64,000 bases of DNA. Origin: an uncultured Erysipelotrichaceae bacterium. GTDB taxonomy: Bacteria; Bacillota_I; Bacilli_A; RFN20; CAG-826. The position numbers were made by a program, and so were the translations under genes. Positions within the stretch are counted from its first letter, which is position 1. Each line of letters begins with the position of its first letter. Of the stretch, positions 6,937 to 33,347 are shown piece after piece. The notes below the pieces were generated by a model, which saw only the letters and a list, made by a program, of their open reading frames with translations, was not told the origin of the DNA and did not search any database. The stretch spans positions 1 through 64,000 of the forward strand of contig CACYCS010000093.1 of NCBI GenBank assembly GCA_902773005.1, given 5' to 3'.

Positions 6937-7581
6937 ATGAAGCTCTACCACGGTTCAAAAGATAACTTCAAGTCGCCTATCTTCGGATGCGGCAACCCAA
7001 GCAATGACTACGGGCTTGGGTTTTATATGACGCCTGATAAAACCGCAGCAGAACTGTGGGCGAGCCAGTATAAAGAAGGCGGGCATGTTATTTGCTTCAA
7101 CGTGGATTTGAAGGGTTTGAATGTCCTGACACTTGACGGAAGTGCCGAATTGGATGTTCTCCGTTGGATCGCCATTTTGGCGAAGCATCGTTTTCCTTAT
7201 CAGGAACGCATTCAACATCAGGAGGCTCTTTCGTGGCTCGACCGCCATTTTGGAATCTCTTTAGATGGCTACGATATGGTTGCGGGCTATAGGGCTGACG
7301 ATTCGTATTTCTCCTATTCCCTGGGGTTCGTGTCTGGACAAATCTCCCTTGAAACGCTTTCGTCTACCATGAGGCTAGGGCGTCTTGGACTTCAATATGT
7401 CGCAATATCCAAGAAGGGATTTCAAAGTCTGAGATATCTAGGGTCTTATCCGGTAGAGCCTAGTAGCGGTTATGCTGATATGCGGAGTAAAACGCTTGGC
7501 GAATACCACGAATTGCTGGTCCGCGAGGATAGATTTCACAATACGTTTATCGGGGAGCTCATGAAAAAGTATGGCGAATAG
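6937..7581 (+). CDS. DUF3990 protein, ADP-ribosyltransferase-like (putative toxin)
   Basis: A 214-residue protein beginning KLYHGSK, followed by YGLGFYMT and an A.LWA segment. These are the diagnostic blocks of DUF3990, a family with an ADP-ribosyltransferase-like fold. Members usually sit in toxin-antitoxin-like clusters, so it may transfer ADP-ribose to a cell target; this has not been shown for this subgroup to my knowledge. There is no signal peptide, so it acts in the cytoplasm. The gene overlaps the HTH gene by 11 bases, so the two are co-translated. No ribosome binding site is visible and the promoter geometry suggests a leaderless mRNA. The base composition is AT-rich. Confidence 0.8.
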   Translation: MKLYHGSKDNFKSPIFGCGNPSNDYGLGFYMTPDKTAAELWASQYKEGGHVICFNVDLKGLNVLTLDGSAELDVLRWIAILAKHRFPYQERIQHQEALSWLDRHFGISLDGYDMVAGYRADDSYFSYSLGFVSGQISLETLSSTMRLGRLGLQYVAISKKGFQSLRYLGSYPVEPSSGYADMRSKTLGEYHELLVREDRFHNTFIGELMKKYGE

Positions 7582-8470
7582 CGTCTCTATGGTCCTGAAA
7601 GACAAGTTCGGGCGACTGTTGCATTATCTAGTTTCCTCAGGCTTCACCTATGAGTTGATCCAGGAGAAAATACTGAGAGACCCCTTCTTTCTATGCTTTG
7701 AGGAAAACAATGCTTCGCGCTTTCTTTCCAAGTCAATCGAAAGCGTGATTCAAAATGTTTTCGGCAAAGCGACGTATTTGGATTACTCGGCGAATATCTC
7801 TAGCGAACTATATTGGGCGGGACAAATGTACATAGGGCTGTTGCTTAATGAATCGGTCCCTTTGCAACGAAGCATCCTCATCGTTCCCATTGATAAGATG
7901 ATTGGCTATTTCCCTCTTTTTCATGAGATGAGCGAGGCGAATCTTTATCAGAAATACTTAGATGAGGAAAGGCAAACAAGCGTATTTCGACTTCTTTCCA
8001 AGGGCAAAGGAACAATCAAGAGCATTTCTTATTTAACTGGAATCAATAGCAACACCCTCAATAGCTATGTTGATAATTCCAAACTGTTTTCCTGCTCTAT
8101 GTCCAATGCGACTAAGCTTGCCTCCTTATTCGAGGTGCCGCTTGCGACGTTGAACAAGGAAACGAACTTTGTTCCCGATATCGCAGATTTGCTCGATGGG
8201 CCTGCATTTAAGCAGACTTTCATTGGAACTTTGGCGACTTATTTAAAATATGATCCCCATCTTGTCGAGGCTGTTTCCGATGAAAGGGAGTTTAAAGAAA
8301 AAATAGACGAAGGAAAATATGCGGCCATTTATGATAGGCGCGACCATTCTTTGTATTTCACTAAGTCTCATAAGTTCCGCGTCCTAACCAAGGCGGAGGT
8401 TCGATTCCTTAGCAAGCGATCGATCCAGGAATTCAAGCTGTCTTTGACTAGTGGGGAAATCTTGTTTTGA
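7571..8470 (+). CDS. HTH protein, putative antitoxin/autoregulator of the DUF3990-HipA module
   Basis: A 299-residue protein that I do not recognise as a whole. Residues about 147-195 look like a Cro/C1-type helix-turn-helix (GTIKSISYLTGINSNTLNSY, then a LASLFEVPLATL segment). The N-terminal 140 residues are mixed alpha/beta and the C-terminal 80 residues end in a conserved KRSIQEFKLSLTSGEI tail. It overlaps the DUF3990 gene by 11 bases and lies 112 bases before the HipA-like gene. The position fits a neutralising or repressor role, probably acting on the TGGTTAAAA array at 8497-8550. That role is inferred. A decayed copy of its 3' end lies at 6671. Confidence 0.7.
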   Translation: MANSVSMVLKDKFGRLLHYLVSSGFTYELIQEKILRDPFFLCFEENNASRFLSKSIESVIQNVFGKATYLDYSANISSELYWAGQMYIGLLLNESVPLQRSILIVPIDKMIGYFPLFHEMSEANLYQKYLDEERQTSVFRLLSKGKGTIKSISYLTGINSNTLNSYVDNSKLFSCSMSNATKLASLFEVPLATLNKETNFVPDIADLLDGPAFKQTFIGTLATYLKYDPHLVEAVSDEREFKEKIDEGKYAAIYDRRDHSLYFTKSHKFRVLTKAEVRFLSKRSIQEFKLSLTSGEILF

Positions 8471-8496
8471 CGAATTAGACGGTGCTTAAAGCCTCT

Positions 8497-8561
8497 TTTT
8501 AACCACGACTTAATTTGTAGTTAAAATGATGGTTAAAAATGTGGTTAAAACATTCTATAAT
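8497..8561 (+). promoter_or_regulatory. Operator array with 12-bp period and promoter of the HipA-like gene
   Basis: Three direct half-sites, TAGTTAAAA (8518), TGGTTAAAA (8530) and TGGTTAAAA (8542), are spaced exactly 12 bp apart. An inverted copy, TTTTAACCA, is at 8497-8505. A perfect TATAAT -10 box follows at 8556-8561. Transcription should start near 8568, which rules out an ATG at 8526 as the start of the next gene. The array probably lets the HTH protein or a HipB-like factor repress the kinase gene. Confidence 0.7.
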
Positions 8562-8582
8562 CTGTCCGAGGGATTATTCATT

Positions 8583-9998
8583 ATGGACAGTGAGACGGCT
8601 AAAAGAATTGCCGAATTGGCACTGAAGATTTCCGAACTTCCAAAAGGAAGCATCTCCCGCAAGGTTATCAACGGAAAAGCATATTTTTATCATCAATGGC
8701 GGGAAAACGGGAAACTCAACAGCGAATATCTTAACGGCGCTCAGATGATTGAACTCAATTCTCAGATCGAATTGCGCAAAAAACTCAAAGAGGAGATGAA
8801 TGATTTGAAGTGGCGGGGCTTCTCGCATGAATTGACTGAATTAGACTTGCCTTATTTGCTTATGCACCTTAATTCGCCAGTTGTTTCCTTATCCTTCGAA
8901 GAAAGAACTGGCGTGATTTCCGAGGTGGGCCGCGTTGAAAACGCATCTCTTCTTCCAATTGGGACGATGACTTCCTATGGTGCGGTTGACCCGAACAAAT
9001 TGAAGGACTGGTGGCTCAATCGAAGCATTCCCGCAAGTAGGTCTGGAATCCGAAATGTTTTGGAAGAATTGAATATTTCCTCCACGACTGCCCTGCTGAA
9101 AAAGAGCTATGGGCTAAGTCTTTCTGATGGCTATTGGGTCAAAGAGAAGGATAACGCGCTTTCCTGGGAGCAGGTAAATTTCTTTTCGAACCCATTCAGC
9201 GACGACCTAGGCCAATTGCTTTTCTCGGGAGTAAAAAAGACAGATATGCAATATTCTTCTCCCGATAGCTCCTCTGGTGGAAACCTGAAAAAGAGGTGGA
9301 AAATTATAAACGGCGAACGCGTTCTCATCAAAGGTGGTTCGGTTCCTTTTCGACAAGAGCCATTTAATGAGGCTATTGCGTCAGCGCTCTGCGACACTCT
9401 TGGCATACCGCACGTCGAGTATCAGCTTATCTTCATTAGCGGTCAGCCATATAGCGTTTGCCCGGATTTCGCAAGCGAAGCCGTGGAGTTCATCCCGGCC
9501 CACGATATTCTTCTGCAATACCCAAGAAGGAAGAACGAGTCCACGCTATCGCAGCTGCTTAGGGCCTGTGACGCGCTTGGGATCCCTAATGTCCGCCCTG
9601 CGATCTCTGAAATGATCATATTGGATTACCTGATTGCAAACGAAGACAGGCATACCAACAACTTTGGATTTCTGAGAAACAGCGAAACACTGGAATGGCT
9701 TGGCATGGCGCCTCTTTTTGACAACGGGTCTTCCTTCGGCTTCGACAAGCTCACCGCGGATATCGCTGCTTACAAAGACATTGCCTGCGAACCATTTAAA
9801 AATCGTCATCAAGAGCAACTTGAACTGGCTTTCCCGTGTCCGCAATTTAATGCTCAGGCGTTGGACAGTTTGCCTGCGCTAGCGGAGTCGTTCTTCAAAG
9901 AGAACGGCGGAAAGTTCGTCGATTCGGCGAGGGCGGAAGCGATTTCCTCTGCCCTTGCGATTCGAGTTCGGGACCTGAAAAGGCGATTACTGGGTTGA
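8583..9998 (+). CDS. HipA-like serine/threonine kinase (putative toxin)
   Basis: A 471-residue protein. The first 80 residues carry a KAYFYHQWRENGKLNSEYL block. The HipA-like kinase core follows: RVLIKGGS supplies the ATP-binding Lys, and EPFNEAIAS the partner Glu. NEDRHTNNFGFL holds the likely catalytic Asp355 and PLFDNGS the likely metal-binding Asp380. All key residues are present, so it is probably active. HipA kinases of known type phosphorylate aminoacyl-tRNA synthetases and cause growth arrest; the target here is unknown. The start at 8583 was chosen because TATAAT at 8556 and a GAGGG site at 8568 precede it. No HipB or HipS gene of the classical kind is adjacent; the DUF3990 and HTH genes take that place. 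Confidence 0.8.
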   Translation: MDSETAKRIAELALKISELPKGSISRKVINGKAYFYHQWRENGKLNSEYLNGAQMIELNSQIELRKKLKEEMNDLKWRGFSHELTELDLPYLLMHLNSPVVSLSFEERTGVISEVGRVENASLLPIGTMTSYGAVDPNKLKDWWLNRSIPASRSGIRNVLEELNISSTTALLKKSYGLSLSDGYWVKEKDNALSWEQVNFFSNPFSDDLGQLLFSGVKKTDMQYSSPDSSSGGNLKKRWKIINGERVLIKGGSVPFRQEPFNEAIASALCDTLGIPHVEYQLIFISGQPYSVCPDFASEAVEFIPAHDILLQYPRRKNESTLSQLLRACDALGIPNVRPAISEMIILDYLIANEDRHTNNFGFLRNSETLEWLGMAPLFDNGSSFGFDKLTADIAAYKDIACEPFKNRHQEQLELAFPCPQFNAQALDSLPALAESFFKENGGKFVDSARAEAISSALAIRVRDLKRRLLG

Positions 9999-29972: not shown

Positions 29973-30047
29973 CGCGCATGATGCGTGCACATGTGTATGC
30001 GTATTTGCGTGCGCGCTATTAAAAAACGCATGCCAATCTTCTATAAT
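29973..30047 (+). promoter_or_regulatory. CG-alternating tracts and -10 box before the membrane esterase
   Basis: CGCGCATGATGCGTGCACAT and GCGTGCGCGC (30007-30016) precede TATAAT at 30042-30047. A GAGGGA ribosome binding site follows at about 30060. Confidence 0.5.
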
Positions 30048-30071
30048 GATTCCGAAATCGAGGGAACGCGT

Positions 30072-31340
30072 ATGTCTCAGAAACTCTATTCCAGAATCCA
30101 TATTGTCTTCTTTGCCGTCCATATCGCCATGCTTCTGGCGGCTTTCATTTCCTATTTGGCTGTCGGGGAACTTTGGCTAAGCCTATCGATGCTAGCGGTG
30201 TTTGGATGCGTTGCGACATTCTCTTTGGCAACCTTCTTCCTGAACCTTCCGCCTCTATATCTTCTTCCTGCGGCGGGGCTCCTTATTATGGACACGAGCT
30301 TCTTGAATTTCACGACCGTCGGCTATAACCACCTGTACTTGATCGATGCGATTATCTTGATTGCTGGAGCGGTGGGCTTATCGGTTCTGCTTTTCCTCTC
30401 GAAGTCGAAGATCAAGAAGTCTGGCGTTCCTTTTCTAGCTGGATTCTTGGTTGCGGTGCTCGTGTCGGGATTAGGATTTGGCATTCCTAGCGGCATGGAA
30501 CGGAACGCGAAGGAAGTTGGCTTTGCTAGGTTCCAAGTCCCTTCGTTTGTGGACTCGGTCGAGGCTAGCGAGGCCGATAAAGGAAAAGTCGAGGACGTCT
30601 ATTATGACACCAAACATTATGCGACGAACGAAGCGCCAATTCAAAAAAGGGCGCAGGTCTATCTCCCACCTCATTACGATTCCTCGAAACCCTATAACAT
30701 CCTCTACCTTCTCCATGGCACGGGCGACGATGAGATCTATTGGCTCACCACGAACCATCAAAACAAGGTGATGCTTGATAACCTCATCAACATGAAGGCC
30801 ATCAATCCCTTGATCGTCGTCACTCCGACTTGGTACGTCGGCGATGATTGCGCGGATGATCTGGATCAGCTTACGTGGTCATTCAAGAAGGAACTGAGAA
30901 ATGACTTGATGCCCGCGATCGAAAGCAAATACTCCACTTTCACCGAAGGGGCGGTGGATCCTAATGCCTTTGCGTCCACTAGAGATCACCGCGCGTTCGC
31001 CGGGCTTTCTAGAGGCGCGGTCACAACCTATCATTCCGTCTTCATGGAGTCGCTTGACTATTTCTCCTATATCGGAACTTTCTCGGGATCAAGGACCACT
31101 GCAGCGCAGCTAAAGGAAGCACTGGAAAGGAATTCCTTCCTGGACCTTCCGATTCATTATTACTATGCTGCGGCAGGGACGTTCGATTTTGCTGAGCCGC
31201 TTCTATATAGCCAATATAACGACTATCTGAAGCTTGGACTTAGGATTGAGAATACGAGATTTGACGCAGTGCCATTCCGCTACCACAGCATGGAAAATTG
31301 GCATGTGAACCTATACAACTACCTCCAGCTGATATTCTAA
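30072..31340 (+). CDS. Membrane-anchored esterase, CE1/esterase-D-like
   Basis: A 422-residue protein. About four membrane helices occupy the first 135 residues. An alpha/beta-hydrolase domain of the putative-esterase family (as in feruloyl and acetylxylan esterases) follows. YLPPHYDSSKPYNILYLLHG marks its start, AFAGLSRGAV holds the nucleophile Ser, an Asp follows in AGTFDFAE and the His is in YHSMENWHVN. It should remove acyl groups from plant polysaccharides or another ester outside the cell. The start at 30072 was chosen for its GAGGGA site; the open frame upstream is intergenic. Confidence 0.8.
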   Translation: MSQKLYSRIHIVFFAVHIAMLLAAFISYLAVGELWLSLSMLAVFGCVATFSLATFFLNLPPLYLLPAAGLLIMDTSFLNFTTVGYNHLYLIDAIILIAGAVGLSVLLFLSKSKIKKSGVPFLAGFLVAVLVSGLGFGIPSGMERNAKEVGFARFQVPSFVDSVEASEADKGKVEDVYYDTKHYATNEAPIQKRAQVYLPPHYDSSKPYNILYLLHGTGDDEIYWLTTNHQNKVMLDNLINMKAINPLIVVTPTWYVGDDCADDLDQLTWSFKKELRNDLMPAIESKYSTFTEGAVDPNAFASTRDHRAFAGLSRGAVTTYHSVFMESLDYFSYIGTFSGSRTTAAQLKEALERNSFLDLPIHYYYAAAGTFDFAEPLLYSQYNDYLKLGLRIENTRFDAVPFRYHSMENWHVNLYNYLQLIF

Positions 31341-31392: not shown

Positions 31393-31605
31393 CGTGTTTC
31401 TGAAAAAGTTTTCCATCTTTGTCAACGTAAAAAATGAAAAACAAAGAAAAATAAATTTTTTTAAAACCTCAAAATAGACACAAAAAAATTCGATGAAATC
31501 GAAACAAATATTACAAAGCGATATTGCAAAAAATGTCAACCGATAAAAAATTTAGGTCACAATTTCGATTTTTTCAGCAATTAGTAAGTAGGAGGATGAT
31601 CAGAA
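31393..31605 (+). other. Very AT-rich leader/promoter region of the small-ORF and RNA locus
   Basis: A run of A- and T-tracts (31430-31580) stands out from the 50% GC surroundings and resembles a strong promoter with upstream A/T elements. TTGCAA near 31524 and AT-rich boxes downstream could form the promoter. It ends with AGGAGG at 31590-31595. Confidence 0.4.
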
Positions 31606-31704
31606 ATGATTATCACTTCCAAGGGGCTGCAGCCGCGCATTCTGAAGGACTTGCTTGCATTCGACACCCGGAGCAAGCATGGTCATGAGGAAGAAGTTCC
31701 GTAA
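31606..31704 (+). CDS. Small ORF of 32 residues with strong ribosome binding site
   Basis: ATG at 31606 follows AGGAGG (31590-31595) by 10 bases. The peptide begins MIITSKGLQPRILKDLLAFD and ends in HEEEVP. It is not recognised. It overlaps the next small ORF by 20 bases in another frame and may be a leader peptide that couples translation. Confidence 0.45.
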   Translation: MIITSKGLQPRILKDLLAFDTRSKHGHEEEVP

Positions 31705-31759
31705 GGTTGTGACGCTCCTAATCGTCGTCGCATTGCTCTTGGCGCTCCTCGGAGCCTAG
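31685..31759 (+). CDS. 24-residue hydrophobic peptide (type I toxin-like)
   Basis: The peptide is basic at its start (MRKKFRK) and continues as one hydrophobic helix (VVTLLIVVALLLALLGA). A GGAG site lies 11 bases before the ATG. Size and layout resemble membrane peptides of type I toxin-antitoxin systems such as Fst or Ldr, but sequence identity to these is not evident. It ends 10 bases before the first structured RNA copy. Confidence 0.45.
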   Translation: MRKKFRKVVTLLIVVALLLALLGA

Positions 31760-31769
31760 AGCAAAGAGA

Positions 31770-31982
31770 AGCCCCGTCTTGGCTGAGATGGGGCTTCGAG
31801 CGACGTCCGTTAGGACGCCAAGGGTGCTCGTCAAATGGCGAGTGCCCAAACCTACGAGATTATTATGCGCCGGGGGTTTCTCCGGGTAAACCCCTGGCTG
31901 CAGCCTCATCGAGGAGTAAGGCCGCGAATTGCTTCGGCAAGGCGCGGCTTTTATCAGTTTTCGGCAGGACAAAACATGTCCG
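31770..31982 (+). ncRNA. Structured RNA element, copy 1
   Basis: Five hairpins can be drawn in order: CCCCGTCT/AGATGGGG with loop TGGCTG; CGTCC/GGACG with loop GTTA; GGGTGCTCG/CGAGTGCCC; GCCGGGGGTTT/AAACCCCTGGC; and GCCGCG/CGCGGC enclosing TTGC-TTCG-GCAA. The last is followed by TTTTAT and looks like a terminator on the plus strand. A short GGACA/TGTCC hairpin closes the unit. The family is not recognised. A second copy follows 246 bases later with substitutions that keep the stems. Confidence 0.6.
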
Positions 31983-32015
31983 CTTGAAAAAGGGCGAGGC
32001 GCCGCGGAACAAGAA

Positions 32016-32230
32016 AACCCCGTCTCAGCCAAGACGGGGCTTCCAGCGGCGTCCGTTAGGACGTCACGAGGGCTCGTCGAATGGCGAGTGCCCTAACATA
32101 CGCACTTATATTATGCGCCGGGGGTCTCTCATGGTAAACCTTTGGCTGCAGCTCTGCTGAGGAGCAAAGCCGCGAATTGCTTTGGCAAGGCGCGGCTTTT
32201 ATCTGTTTTCGGCAGGACAAAACATGTCCG
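32016..32230 (+). ncRNA. Structured RNA element, copy 2
   Basis: The same five hairpins as copy 1. In the fourth, three C on the 3' arm have become T, keeping G-T pairs. In the first, the outer stem is kept (CCCCGTCT/AGACGGGG) but the loop is CAGCCA, the exact reverse complement of the copy 1 loop. The terminator-like hairpin ends at 32196 and is followed by TTTTAT. The segment lies past the end of the minus-strand esterase gene, so read-through from either side is possible. Confidence 0.6.
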
Positions 32231-32255
32231 GTAAGGCTTGCTTATACCGGTCAGC

Positions 32256-33302
32256 TTATCTCCCATAGAACGATTTTAGGAACTCTCTTACGGGTTCTAG
32301 ACTTTCGTGAGTGTAGAATCTGTCGTCGGCGTGCTTCCATCCCTTTTCTAAGCGGAACGTGACATTTTCCTCGCCAATCTTTTGGACGAATGCATCCCTT
32401 AGCCTTTCGGATTGGCGGTATGGGACGGTGATATCGATATCTCCATGAGAGATATACGCCTTGAAGTCAGGCCGATTCCAAGTTTCATCCAGATGGCGCG
32501 ACGCGCTTATTTCTCTGAGTTTATCTTCGTTGAAATCATATACGTTTGCGTTGAGGAACCTGTGCGTCATGTTGCTCTCTTCGCTCGCGTCGTTTGAGCC
32601 AACCATATTGAGCAGCCATCTAGGGTATCCTAGATCCTTGAAATCAGGCGTGTATTTGTCGAAATCGATGATGCCATAGAAGTCCACGAGCGCGCCGACT
32701 TCCGCGGTGACTGGATTCGATTCGCTTTCTCCGATGTAAGGCAATGAAGAGAATTCGTCGTTGGCTGTGGTTGCCATCATCGCGGCAAGATACCCTCCGG
32801 CCGATTCGCCCCAAACTGCGATCTTGCTGCAGTCATAACCATATTCGTCTGCGTGCGCTTTGAGGAATTTGATCGCGGCTTTGCAGTCTTCGATGCAGGC
32901 GGGGTATGTTGCCTCGTCCGACAGCCGGTAGTTGATGGATGCGCATGCATACCCTGCCGCGCGCATGTCTTGATACATGAGCTTGGCTTGACGGGATTGG
33001 GATGTGCCTTCGAGGAACCCGCCGCCGTGGATCATGACGTAAAGCGGCGGCTTTTCGCCATCTTCACGCTCCGGAACGTAGATATCGAGGTAGTCGTTTT
33101 CCGATACTCTGCTATAGGGAATTTTTTCGTAAGTTTTTCCCTGCCATTCCGGGATAGGTATGTCCCTATCGAATGCGGTGGCGTTCCTTAGCATAAGGTT
33201 GAGAGTCCCTTTGTTTAGACCGAGTTCGACCGCGACCGTGATTCCTAGTCCAATGACGGCTGCGCCGATGATTGATAAAGCGATGACGAGACCTTTTTTC
33301 AT
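32256..33302 (-). CDS. Alpha/beta-hydrolase esterase/lipase (HSL/BD-FAE-like), membrane-anchored
   Basis: A 348-residue protein with an N-terminal membrane helix (GLVIALSIIGAAVIGLGITV). The oxyanion motif is MIHGGGFLEG, the nucleophile Ser lies in VWGESAGGYLA, the Asp is probably in HGDIDITVPY and the His in GWKHADDRF. Such enzymes remove acetyl or feruloyl groups from short substrates. The start at 33302 follows a GAGGAAA site. It is a single gene on the minus strand, divergent from the membrane gene at 33.4 kb. Confidence 0.82.
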   Translation of the reverse strand: MKKGLVIALSIIGAAVIGLGITVAVELGLNKGTLNLMLRNATAFDRDIPIPEWQGKTYEKIPYSRVSENDYLDIYVPEREDGEKPPLYVMIHGGGFLEGTSQSRQAKLMYQDMRAAGYACASINYRLSDEATYPACIEDCKAAIKFLKAHADEYGYDCSKIAVWGESAGGYLAAMMATTANDEFSSLPYIGESESNPVTAEVGALVDFYGIIDFDKYTPDFKDLGYPRWLLNMVGSNDASEESNMTHRFLNANVYDFNEDKLREISASRHLDETWNRPDFKAYISHGDIDITVPYRQSERLRDAFVQKIGEENVTFRLEKGWKHADDRFYTHESLEPVREFLKSFYGR

Positions 33303-33347
33303 ATGCGGTTTCCTCTTTTGAAACATGATAGCGCAACTTCATCTCAA

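Follow-up and report, generated by a model that had tools for sequence, protein, structure and literature searches.

What kind of element fills the 0.9-kb region between two convergent genes in the window, the 64,000-nucleotide stretch of DNA from an uncultured Erysipelotrichaceae bacterium analysed here? The region contains, in order, an AT-rich stretch, a small open reading frame (ORF1), a second small frame that overlaps it (ORF2) and two ~219-nt repeats, termed units 1 and 2 (Table 1). The initial annotation had placed a tandem pair of structured RNAs at 31606-32230 and likened the locus to a type I toxin-antitoxin (TA) or peptide-RNA locus. The start of that interval is the start of ORF1 and not of an RNA, while both frames described there, a 32-codon ORF with AGGAGG and a small membrane ORF (24 codons from ATG 31685, 26 from ATG 31679), are present.

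Table 1. Coordinates of the window locus, the second locus on contig C78 and further sites referred to in the text
Feature	Position	Strand	Description
Left flanking gene	29985-31340	+	alpha/beta-hydrolase type, Pfam Esterase
AT-rich stretch	31400-31600		presumed promoter region, upstream of ORF1
ORF1 ribosome-binding site	31590-31595	+	AGGAGG
ORF1	31606-31704	+	32 aa, MIITSKGLQPRILKDLLAFDTRSKHGHEEEVP
ORF2	31679-31759	+	26 aa, MVMRKKFRKVVTLLIVVALLLALLGA; 24 aa if the start is ATG 31685
RNA unit 1	31766-31984	+	~219 nt
Unit 1, H1 to H3	31768-31797, 31802-31819, 31822-31847		hairpins, followed by linker
Unit 1, H4 to H6	31867-31901, 31903-31917, 31918-31951		hairpins; H6 is the terminator
Unit 1, H7	31967-31981		palindrome GGACAAAACATGTCC; probable DNA operator
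Predicted promoter, unit 1	31862-31890	-	TTTACC-17-CATAAT; -10 in invariant block TATTATGCGC (31861-31870)
Predicted antisense RNA, unit 1	31751-31856	-	from promoter site and H1 minus-strand T tail
RNA unit 2	32012-32232	+	no peptide gene in front
Unit 2, H1 to H3	32014-32043, 32048-32065, 32068-32093		hairpins
Unit 2, H4 to H6	32115-32149, 32151-32165, 32166-32199		hairpins; H6 is the terminator
Unit 2, H7	32215-32229		second copy of palindrome GGACAAAACATGTCC
Predicted promoter, unit 2	32110-32138	-	TTTACC-17-CATAAT
Predicted antisense RNA, unit 2	31997-32104	-	from promoter site and H1 T tail (3.55)
Right flanking gene	32256-33326	-	alpha/beta-hydrolase type, BD-FAE
C78 module (L009)		-	ORF1, overlapping ORF2, single RNA unit; tRNA-Leu(gag) on one side, ABC-F gene on the other
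C78 ORF1		-	33 aa, MDFNFKGAQ..., MDFNFKGAQAYRPIAFAIDSGDGAEKDESEKTS; 38% identical to window ORF1, stop at equivalent place relative to ORF2
C78 ORF2		-	25 aa, MSRKRRRKVIALLIIAALLLALLGS
GGWCA-N5-TGWCC sites	C25:24699; C50:22397/85284/85594/85683; C78:181; C93:31967/32215		C93 sites are H7 of units 1 and 2
GGWCA-N5-TGWCC sites, continued	C94:542/1527; C110:3986; C118:10404; C175:2684; others		
ROOL RNA, contig C118	L113 911-1456	-	131.6 bits
Structured RNA candidate	L102 about 1570-1800 = C50 about 85354-85584	+	z of -5.2

Units 1 and 2 are direct repeats with a start-to-start spacing of 246-248 nt, 88% identical over the last 122 nt and 76% over the first 114 nt. Both display the order H1-H2-H3-linker-H4-H5-H6, in which H5 is weak, and end in a 15-nt palindrome, H7. 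They fold much more stably than dinucleotide shuffles (z of -7.24 for unit 1 and -5.48 for unit 2, with 0 of 200 shuffles as good), and H6 presents a terminator-like plus-strand T tail, with scores of 3.7-4.2, in the two window units as well as in the C78 unit described below. That the differences between the repeats tend to keep pairing, as had been noticed by eye, is borne out by the counts: 60 of 67 pairs are kept despite 37 substitutions, while random changes equal to these in number and kind keep 52.8 ± 2.6, only 0.3% of them doing as well as observed, and 0.7% of random mutants reach the folding energy of unit 2. The C-to-T change opposite G singled out in the fourth stem is likewise found, H4 of unit 2 having two extra G-U pairs. 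A coding role for the units was rejected: the frame opened by TATTATGCGC (ATGCGC...) runs for 40 codons in unit 1 and 15 in unit 2, stops after 2 in C78 and is not conserved. H1 was also discarded as a plus-strand terminator, having no T tail on that strand (score 1.7).

Within the collections searched, the units constitute a new RNA family. None of the 4227 Rfam families matched a unit at its gathering threshold in a scan of the window, and at the locus, with E up to 10, four weak chance matches were the only ones returned, none near its family threshold. A relation to raiA (ModT) RNA, which had been left open, was not supported: raiA is also near 210 nt, structured and from Bacillota, but its covariance model (RF03072; gathering threshold 101.3 bits) gave no match at the locus with E up to 10. 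A search of the whole genome gave no raiA match either, although the control genomes likewise gave none.

A second locus was identified on contig C78 of the same genome. A search of the genus with the ORF2 peptide yielded a match only in the window's own genome, at C78:405-476 (E of 1.4e-4, 67-68% identity), and a covariance model derived solely from units 1 and 2 matched C78:208-340 (28.7 bits, E of 2.2e-6 per genome), on the same strand as the C78 peptide and directly behind it. These are two independent searches that converge within 300 bases. The tandem arrangement of the RNAs thus describes the window but does not define the module, since the C78 locus has a single unit; folded alone, this RNA forms the matching hairpin series (z of -5.74). 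ORF1 and ORF2 overlap at both loci, and the stop codon of ORF1 lies in an identical CGTAAGG context. Between the two copies of ORF2, dN is about 0.20 and dS 1.0-1.4 (dN/dS of about 0.14-0.21), with differences distributed 7/3/11 over codon positions 1, 2 and 3, indicating that ORF2 is a real protein gene under purifying selection.

The third unit also allowed the stems to be assessed for covariation, with H3 left out of the count because its register is shifted in C78. Over the three units 92.4% of pair cells are standard and six pairs are changed on both sides, whereas controls with the partner slid by 1-3 columns reach at most 43% pairing and at most one double-sided change. C78 retains 29 of 35 pairs where 17.3 ± 2.8 would be expected, and none of 5000 random variants did as well. 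Two blocks, TATTATGCGC and AAAACATGTCC, do not vary among the three units, and the distance from the first to the second is constant at 110-111 nt. A second locus with equal gene order, purifying selection on ORF2 and covarying stems together give good support to a peptide-RNA locus, which we regard as a real module, restricted to its lineage. In this respect the initial annotation was right, and is better founded than the sequence alone could show; the other resemblance it named, to a type I TA locus, stays the best working model, with a predicted antisense RNA and a presumed toxin.

Beyond the second locus in the same genome, searches of relatives revealed no further copy. The module was found neither in the remaining 30 genus genomes (searched by DNA and by peptide), nor in genomes of the order (DNA search; covariance model over 279 genomes), nor in 395 genomes of the class (covariance model), nor in viral contigs, phages or plasmids. 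The single 33-nt DNA match in relatives is a plain terminator, and the weak model matches in the order and class comprise a T-box-like leader before an apparent tRNA synthetase gene, a terminator and ribosome-binding sites. An exact-motif scan of GTDB species genomes returned five matches, none scored by the RNA model; the one read closely lies inside coding sequence. The module is accordingly known from a single draft genome (82% complete, 5.4% contamination), which has three units. The window's neighbouring esterase was not found in the other 30 genomes of the genus either. The ABC-F gene beside the C78 module is present in 30 of 30 other genus genomes, and in several of them the tRNA lies roughly 70-200 bp away with the module absent. 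In the closest relative (L025, about 940-1480) a different small lipoprotein-like gene fills the tRNA-Leu/ABC-F interval, which looks like a variable spot. From this distribution the module looks to have been gained by one lineage, although a single draft genome carries it. On C78 itself a promoter-like TCGAAA-18-TATAAT (L009 558-587, plus strand) lies over the ORF1 start and is directed at the ABC-F gene; module and ABC-F gene may interfere with each other's expression.

Judged by sequence, ORF2 comprises one hydrophobic helix preceded by a basic N-terminus. Scans of Pfam, NCBIfam and PADLOC matched it to no known toxin family, Pfam and PADLOC giving nothing and NCBIfam only a sub-threshold match to Prli42 (NF033880; 19.0 and 21.8 bits, both under the curated cut-off of 27.5). 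The better of these, obtained with C78 ORF2 (E of 1.2e-4), speaks for a reading in which ORF2 is an ordinary gene for a small membrane protein, such as a distant relative of the Prli42 mini-protein, followed by terminators whose tandem copy is a neutral duplication; such terminator-region duplications are known to happen. This appears distinctly improbable. Prli42 is indeed a tiny membrane protein with a basic N-terminus, but the match covers only that N-terminus and the helix, without the C-terminal part of the profile, and no RNA module is known to accompany Prli42. Prli42 is widely conserved across Firmicutes, whereas the ORF2 peptide was not found in other members of the genus. In addition, a conserved stem series of 190 nt far exceeds what a terminator requires, and drift predicts poorer pairing than was observed in unit 2 and in C78.

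The arrangement upstream of ORF2 suggests coupled translation. In the window copy the ribosome-binding site of ORF2 (SD2) is buried in a strong hairpin, as expected if ORF2 is coupled to ORF1, which is possibly a translational leader. Promoter scans of the window copy recognised no clear plus-strand sigma-70 site in the AT-rich stretch, parts of which are kept in C78 (TGTCAA, CAGCAATTA). The same stretch carries a strong minus-strand promoter-like sequence, TTGACA-18-TGTAAT, that runs leftwards from 31539, directed away from ORF1; C78 retains its -35, which reads TGTCAA on the plus strand, but not its -10.

Signals on the opposite strand of the units are of particular relevance for the TA comparison. 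A minus-strand promoter-like site lies between H3 and H4; its CATAAT block is identical in the three units (the C78 version is TTGCTC-17-CATAAT) and among promoter-like sites it ranks first in both window units and second at C78. CATAAT and TATTAT stand at 5/6 each. Its scores (8.0-8.6) are ordinary against a background, best per 220 nt, with a median of 6.6 and a 90th percentile of 9.6, and compare with 9.7 for tmRNA and 9.0 for ROOL in the same genome. H1 presents a minus-strand T tail that scores 2.88 in unit 1 (attained by about 3% or less of the background), 3.55 in unit 2 and 3.0 in C78, while scores of at least 2.5 occur in 3.2% of the background. The promoter site and this tail predict, for each window unit, an antisense RNA some 105 nt long that would start in the linker and cross H3 and H2 before stopping at H1. 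In unit 1 the predicted RNA is complementary to the 3' region of the ORF2 mRNA and its end adjoins the ORF2 stop codon. The G-U pairs assign H3-H6 to the plus strand (15 G-U versus 3 A-C) and are neutral for H1-H2 (3 versus 4). Taken together, the H6 and H1 tails, the minus-strand site and this strand bias suggest that both strands may be transcribed.

The same bias is also accommodated by a locus with no antisense RNA, in which a single plus-strand transcript would serve both as peptide mRNA and as structured regulatory RNA, or as a membrane-protein mRNA with a protective 3' structure, unit 2 acting in trans. In such a locus the stronger folding of units 1 and 2 as plus strand, the termination of that strand by H6 and the pairing kept in unit 2 despite the missing peptide would all find a place; left unexplained are the minus-strand T tails of H1, present in 3 of 3 units, and the invariant TATTATGCGC block, which lies outside the stems, and a weak scan recognised no plus-strand promoter before unit 2. 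We consider this reading somewhat unlikely.

The reading tentatively preferred, at rather less than even confidence, is that this small peptide-RNA module, mobile or specific to its lineage, most likely works in a type I TA-like manner, of the sort with 3' overlap. The plus strand would yield a short mRNA containing leader ORF1, the coupled ORF2 as presumed toxin and a structured 3' part closed by terminator H6. The minus-strand promoter in the H3-H4 linker, with CATAAT supplied by the invariant block, would give rise to the antisense RNA, which would traverse H3, H2 and H1, stop at H1 immediately past the ORF2 stop codon and pair with the 3' region of the mRNA, leading to mRNA decay. Unit 2, a putative duplicate of the RNA part without the peptide gene, would supply a second RNA, 83% identical, and H7 would be the operator for a regulator. 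This model is supported by the second locus, the selection on ORF2, the conserved stems, the H1 minus-strand tails, the CATAAT site, the ORF1/ORF2 overlap with its putative coupling, the ~105-nt length and the 3' overlap, and ORF2 (26 and 25 aa) agrees with the small (<60 aa) hydrophobic peptides with one transmembrane helix that characterise type I TA systems. It is weakened by the ordinary promoter scores, the plus-strand G-U bias in H3-H6, the small number of known units (three, from one draft genome), the lack of a toxin-family match and the position of the charged residues. These are usually C-terminal in Gram-positive type I toxins (PMC6563280), a trait that is usual rather than universal; ORF2 carries them at the N-terminus, and its peptides end in ...ALLLALLGA and ...GS. 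Elsewhere in the window (6937-9998, plus strand), three successive genes, one with DUF3990, one small and unknown and one with a HipA_C domain, possibly form another TA-like locus.

The closest resemblance is to txpA/RatA, bsrG/SR4 and yonT/SR6 of B. subtilis, where the antisense RNA binds the 3' end of the toxin mRNA and RNase III initiates decay (PMC6562991, PMC5848175). These loci likewise display a tiny hydrophobic peptide gene with convergent 3' overlap, and their ~100-nt antisense RNA with a terminator hairpin has its predicted counterpart here, length and overlap matching SR6 and RatA (PMC5848175, PMC6562991). The present locus, where the antisense RNA is predicted, differs from them in that no sequence similarity was found, its peptide has a basic N-terminus instead of a charged C-terminus, a leader ORF1 overlaps the peptide gene and the RNA part is duplicated. 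In hok/Sok and ldrD/RdlD a leader ORF also overlaps the small membrane peptide, and coupling is probable here, but there the antisense RNA targets the 5' region, whereas the candidate here would pair with the 3' region; no homology was found. Duplicated, tandem arrangement is also a feature of the ldr loci.

The C-terminus of ORF2 recalls a peptide signal. In a locus like the inhibitor genes of enterococcal pheromone plasmids, ORF2 would release a C-terminal octapeptide (LLLALLGA or LLLALLGS), and the hairpins would act as antisense-controlled tandem attenuators. The end of ORF2 corresponds to the point where a lipoprotein signal peptide meets its cysteine, as in iAD1 (...PLITLFVVTLVG) and iPD1 (...ALLFALILTLVS), and pheromone plasmids also have terminators (T1/T2 or IRS1) after the peptide gene and antisense control by Anti-Q/mD (PMC7117660). 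The pAD1 iad and pCF10 prgQ loci share with this one a precursor-like peptide of 22-26 aa, followed by tandem terminators and an opposite-strand RNA, the latter predicted here. Here, in contrast, the window and C78 loci both run into convergent genes, leaving no regulated gene downstream, no conjugation gene or PrgX/TraA-type regulator was seen among the window neighbours examined, and the peptide family is unrelated by search. A signalling role seems highly improbable.

In the TA-like model H7 stands apart from the other hairpins, and it is probably a DNA operator rather than an RNA hairpin, because the palindrome recurs in promoter regions. The genome has one further copy of the 15-mer GGACAAAACATGTCC, which precedes a metallophosphatase-like gene, and the degenerate form GGWCA-N5-TGWCC occurs at 17 genome sites against 1 for a reversed control. 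Several of these immediately precede promoter-like sequences that belong to tmRNA, ROOL RNA and two AAA-ATPase-like genes; in the units themselves H7 has no obvious -35 adjoining. The recurrence in promoter regions weakens a purely RNA hairpin role, and a ribosome-binding site with start codon (AGGACAAAACATG) was rejected, there being no conserved open frame behind it. The ROOL RNA lies 45 nt downstream of a GGACA palindrome. On C50, a structured RNA candidate with no Rfam match has a promoter-like TTGACC-17-CATAAT and a terminator-like end, and is flanked by three palindrome sites.

In its widest form, the module would be an undescribed structured RNA family tied to a bicistronic micro-peptide gene, duplicable without it, transcribed from both strands and under a genome-wide regulator shared with tmRNA and ROOL; as a whole, this combination must be considered rather unlikely. 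The palindrome is itself a handle on a regulator that seems to be placed at promoters of stable non-coding RNAs. Should the functional part be the RNA itself, it would represent a new class of structured RNA that comes with its own peptide partner. If the antisense model is true, the module would be a new type I TA family whose antitoxin region is duplicated, from a lineage known here through drafts alone, and would offer an example of the RNA part multiplying without its toxin.
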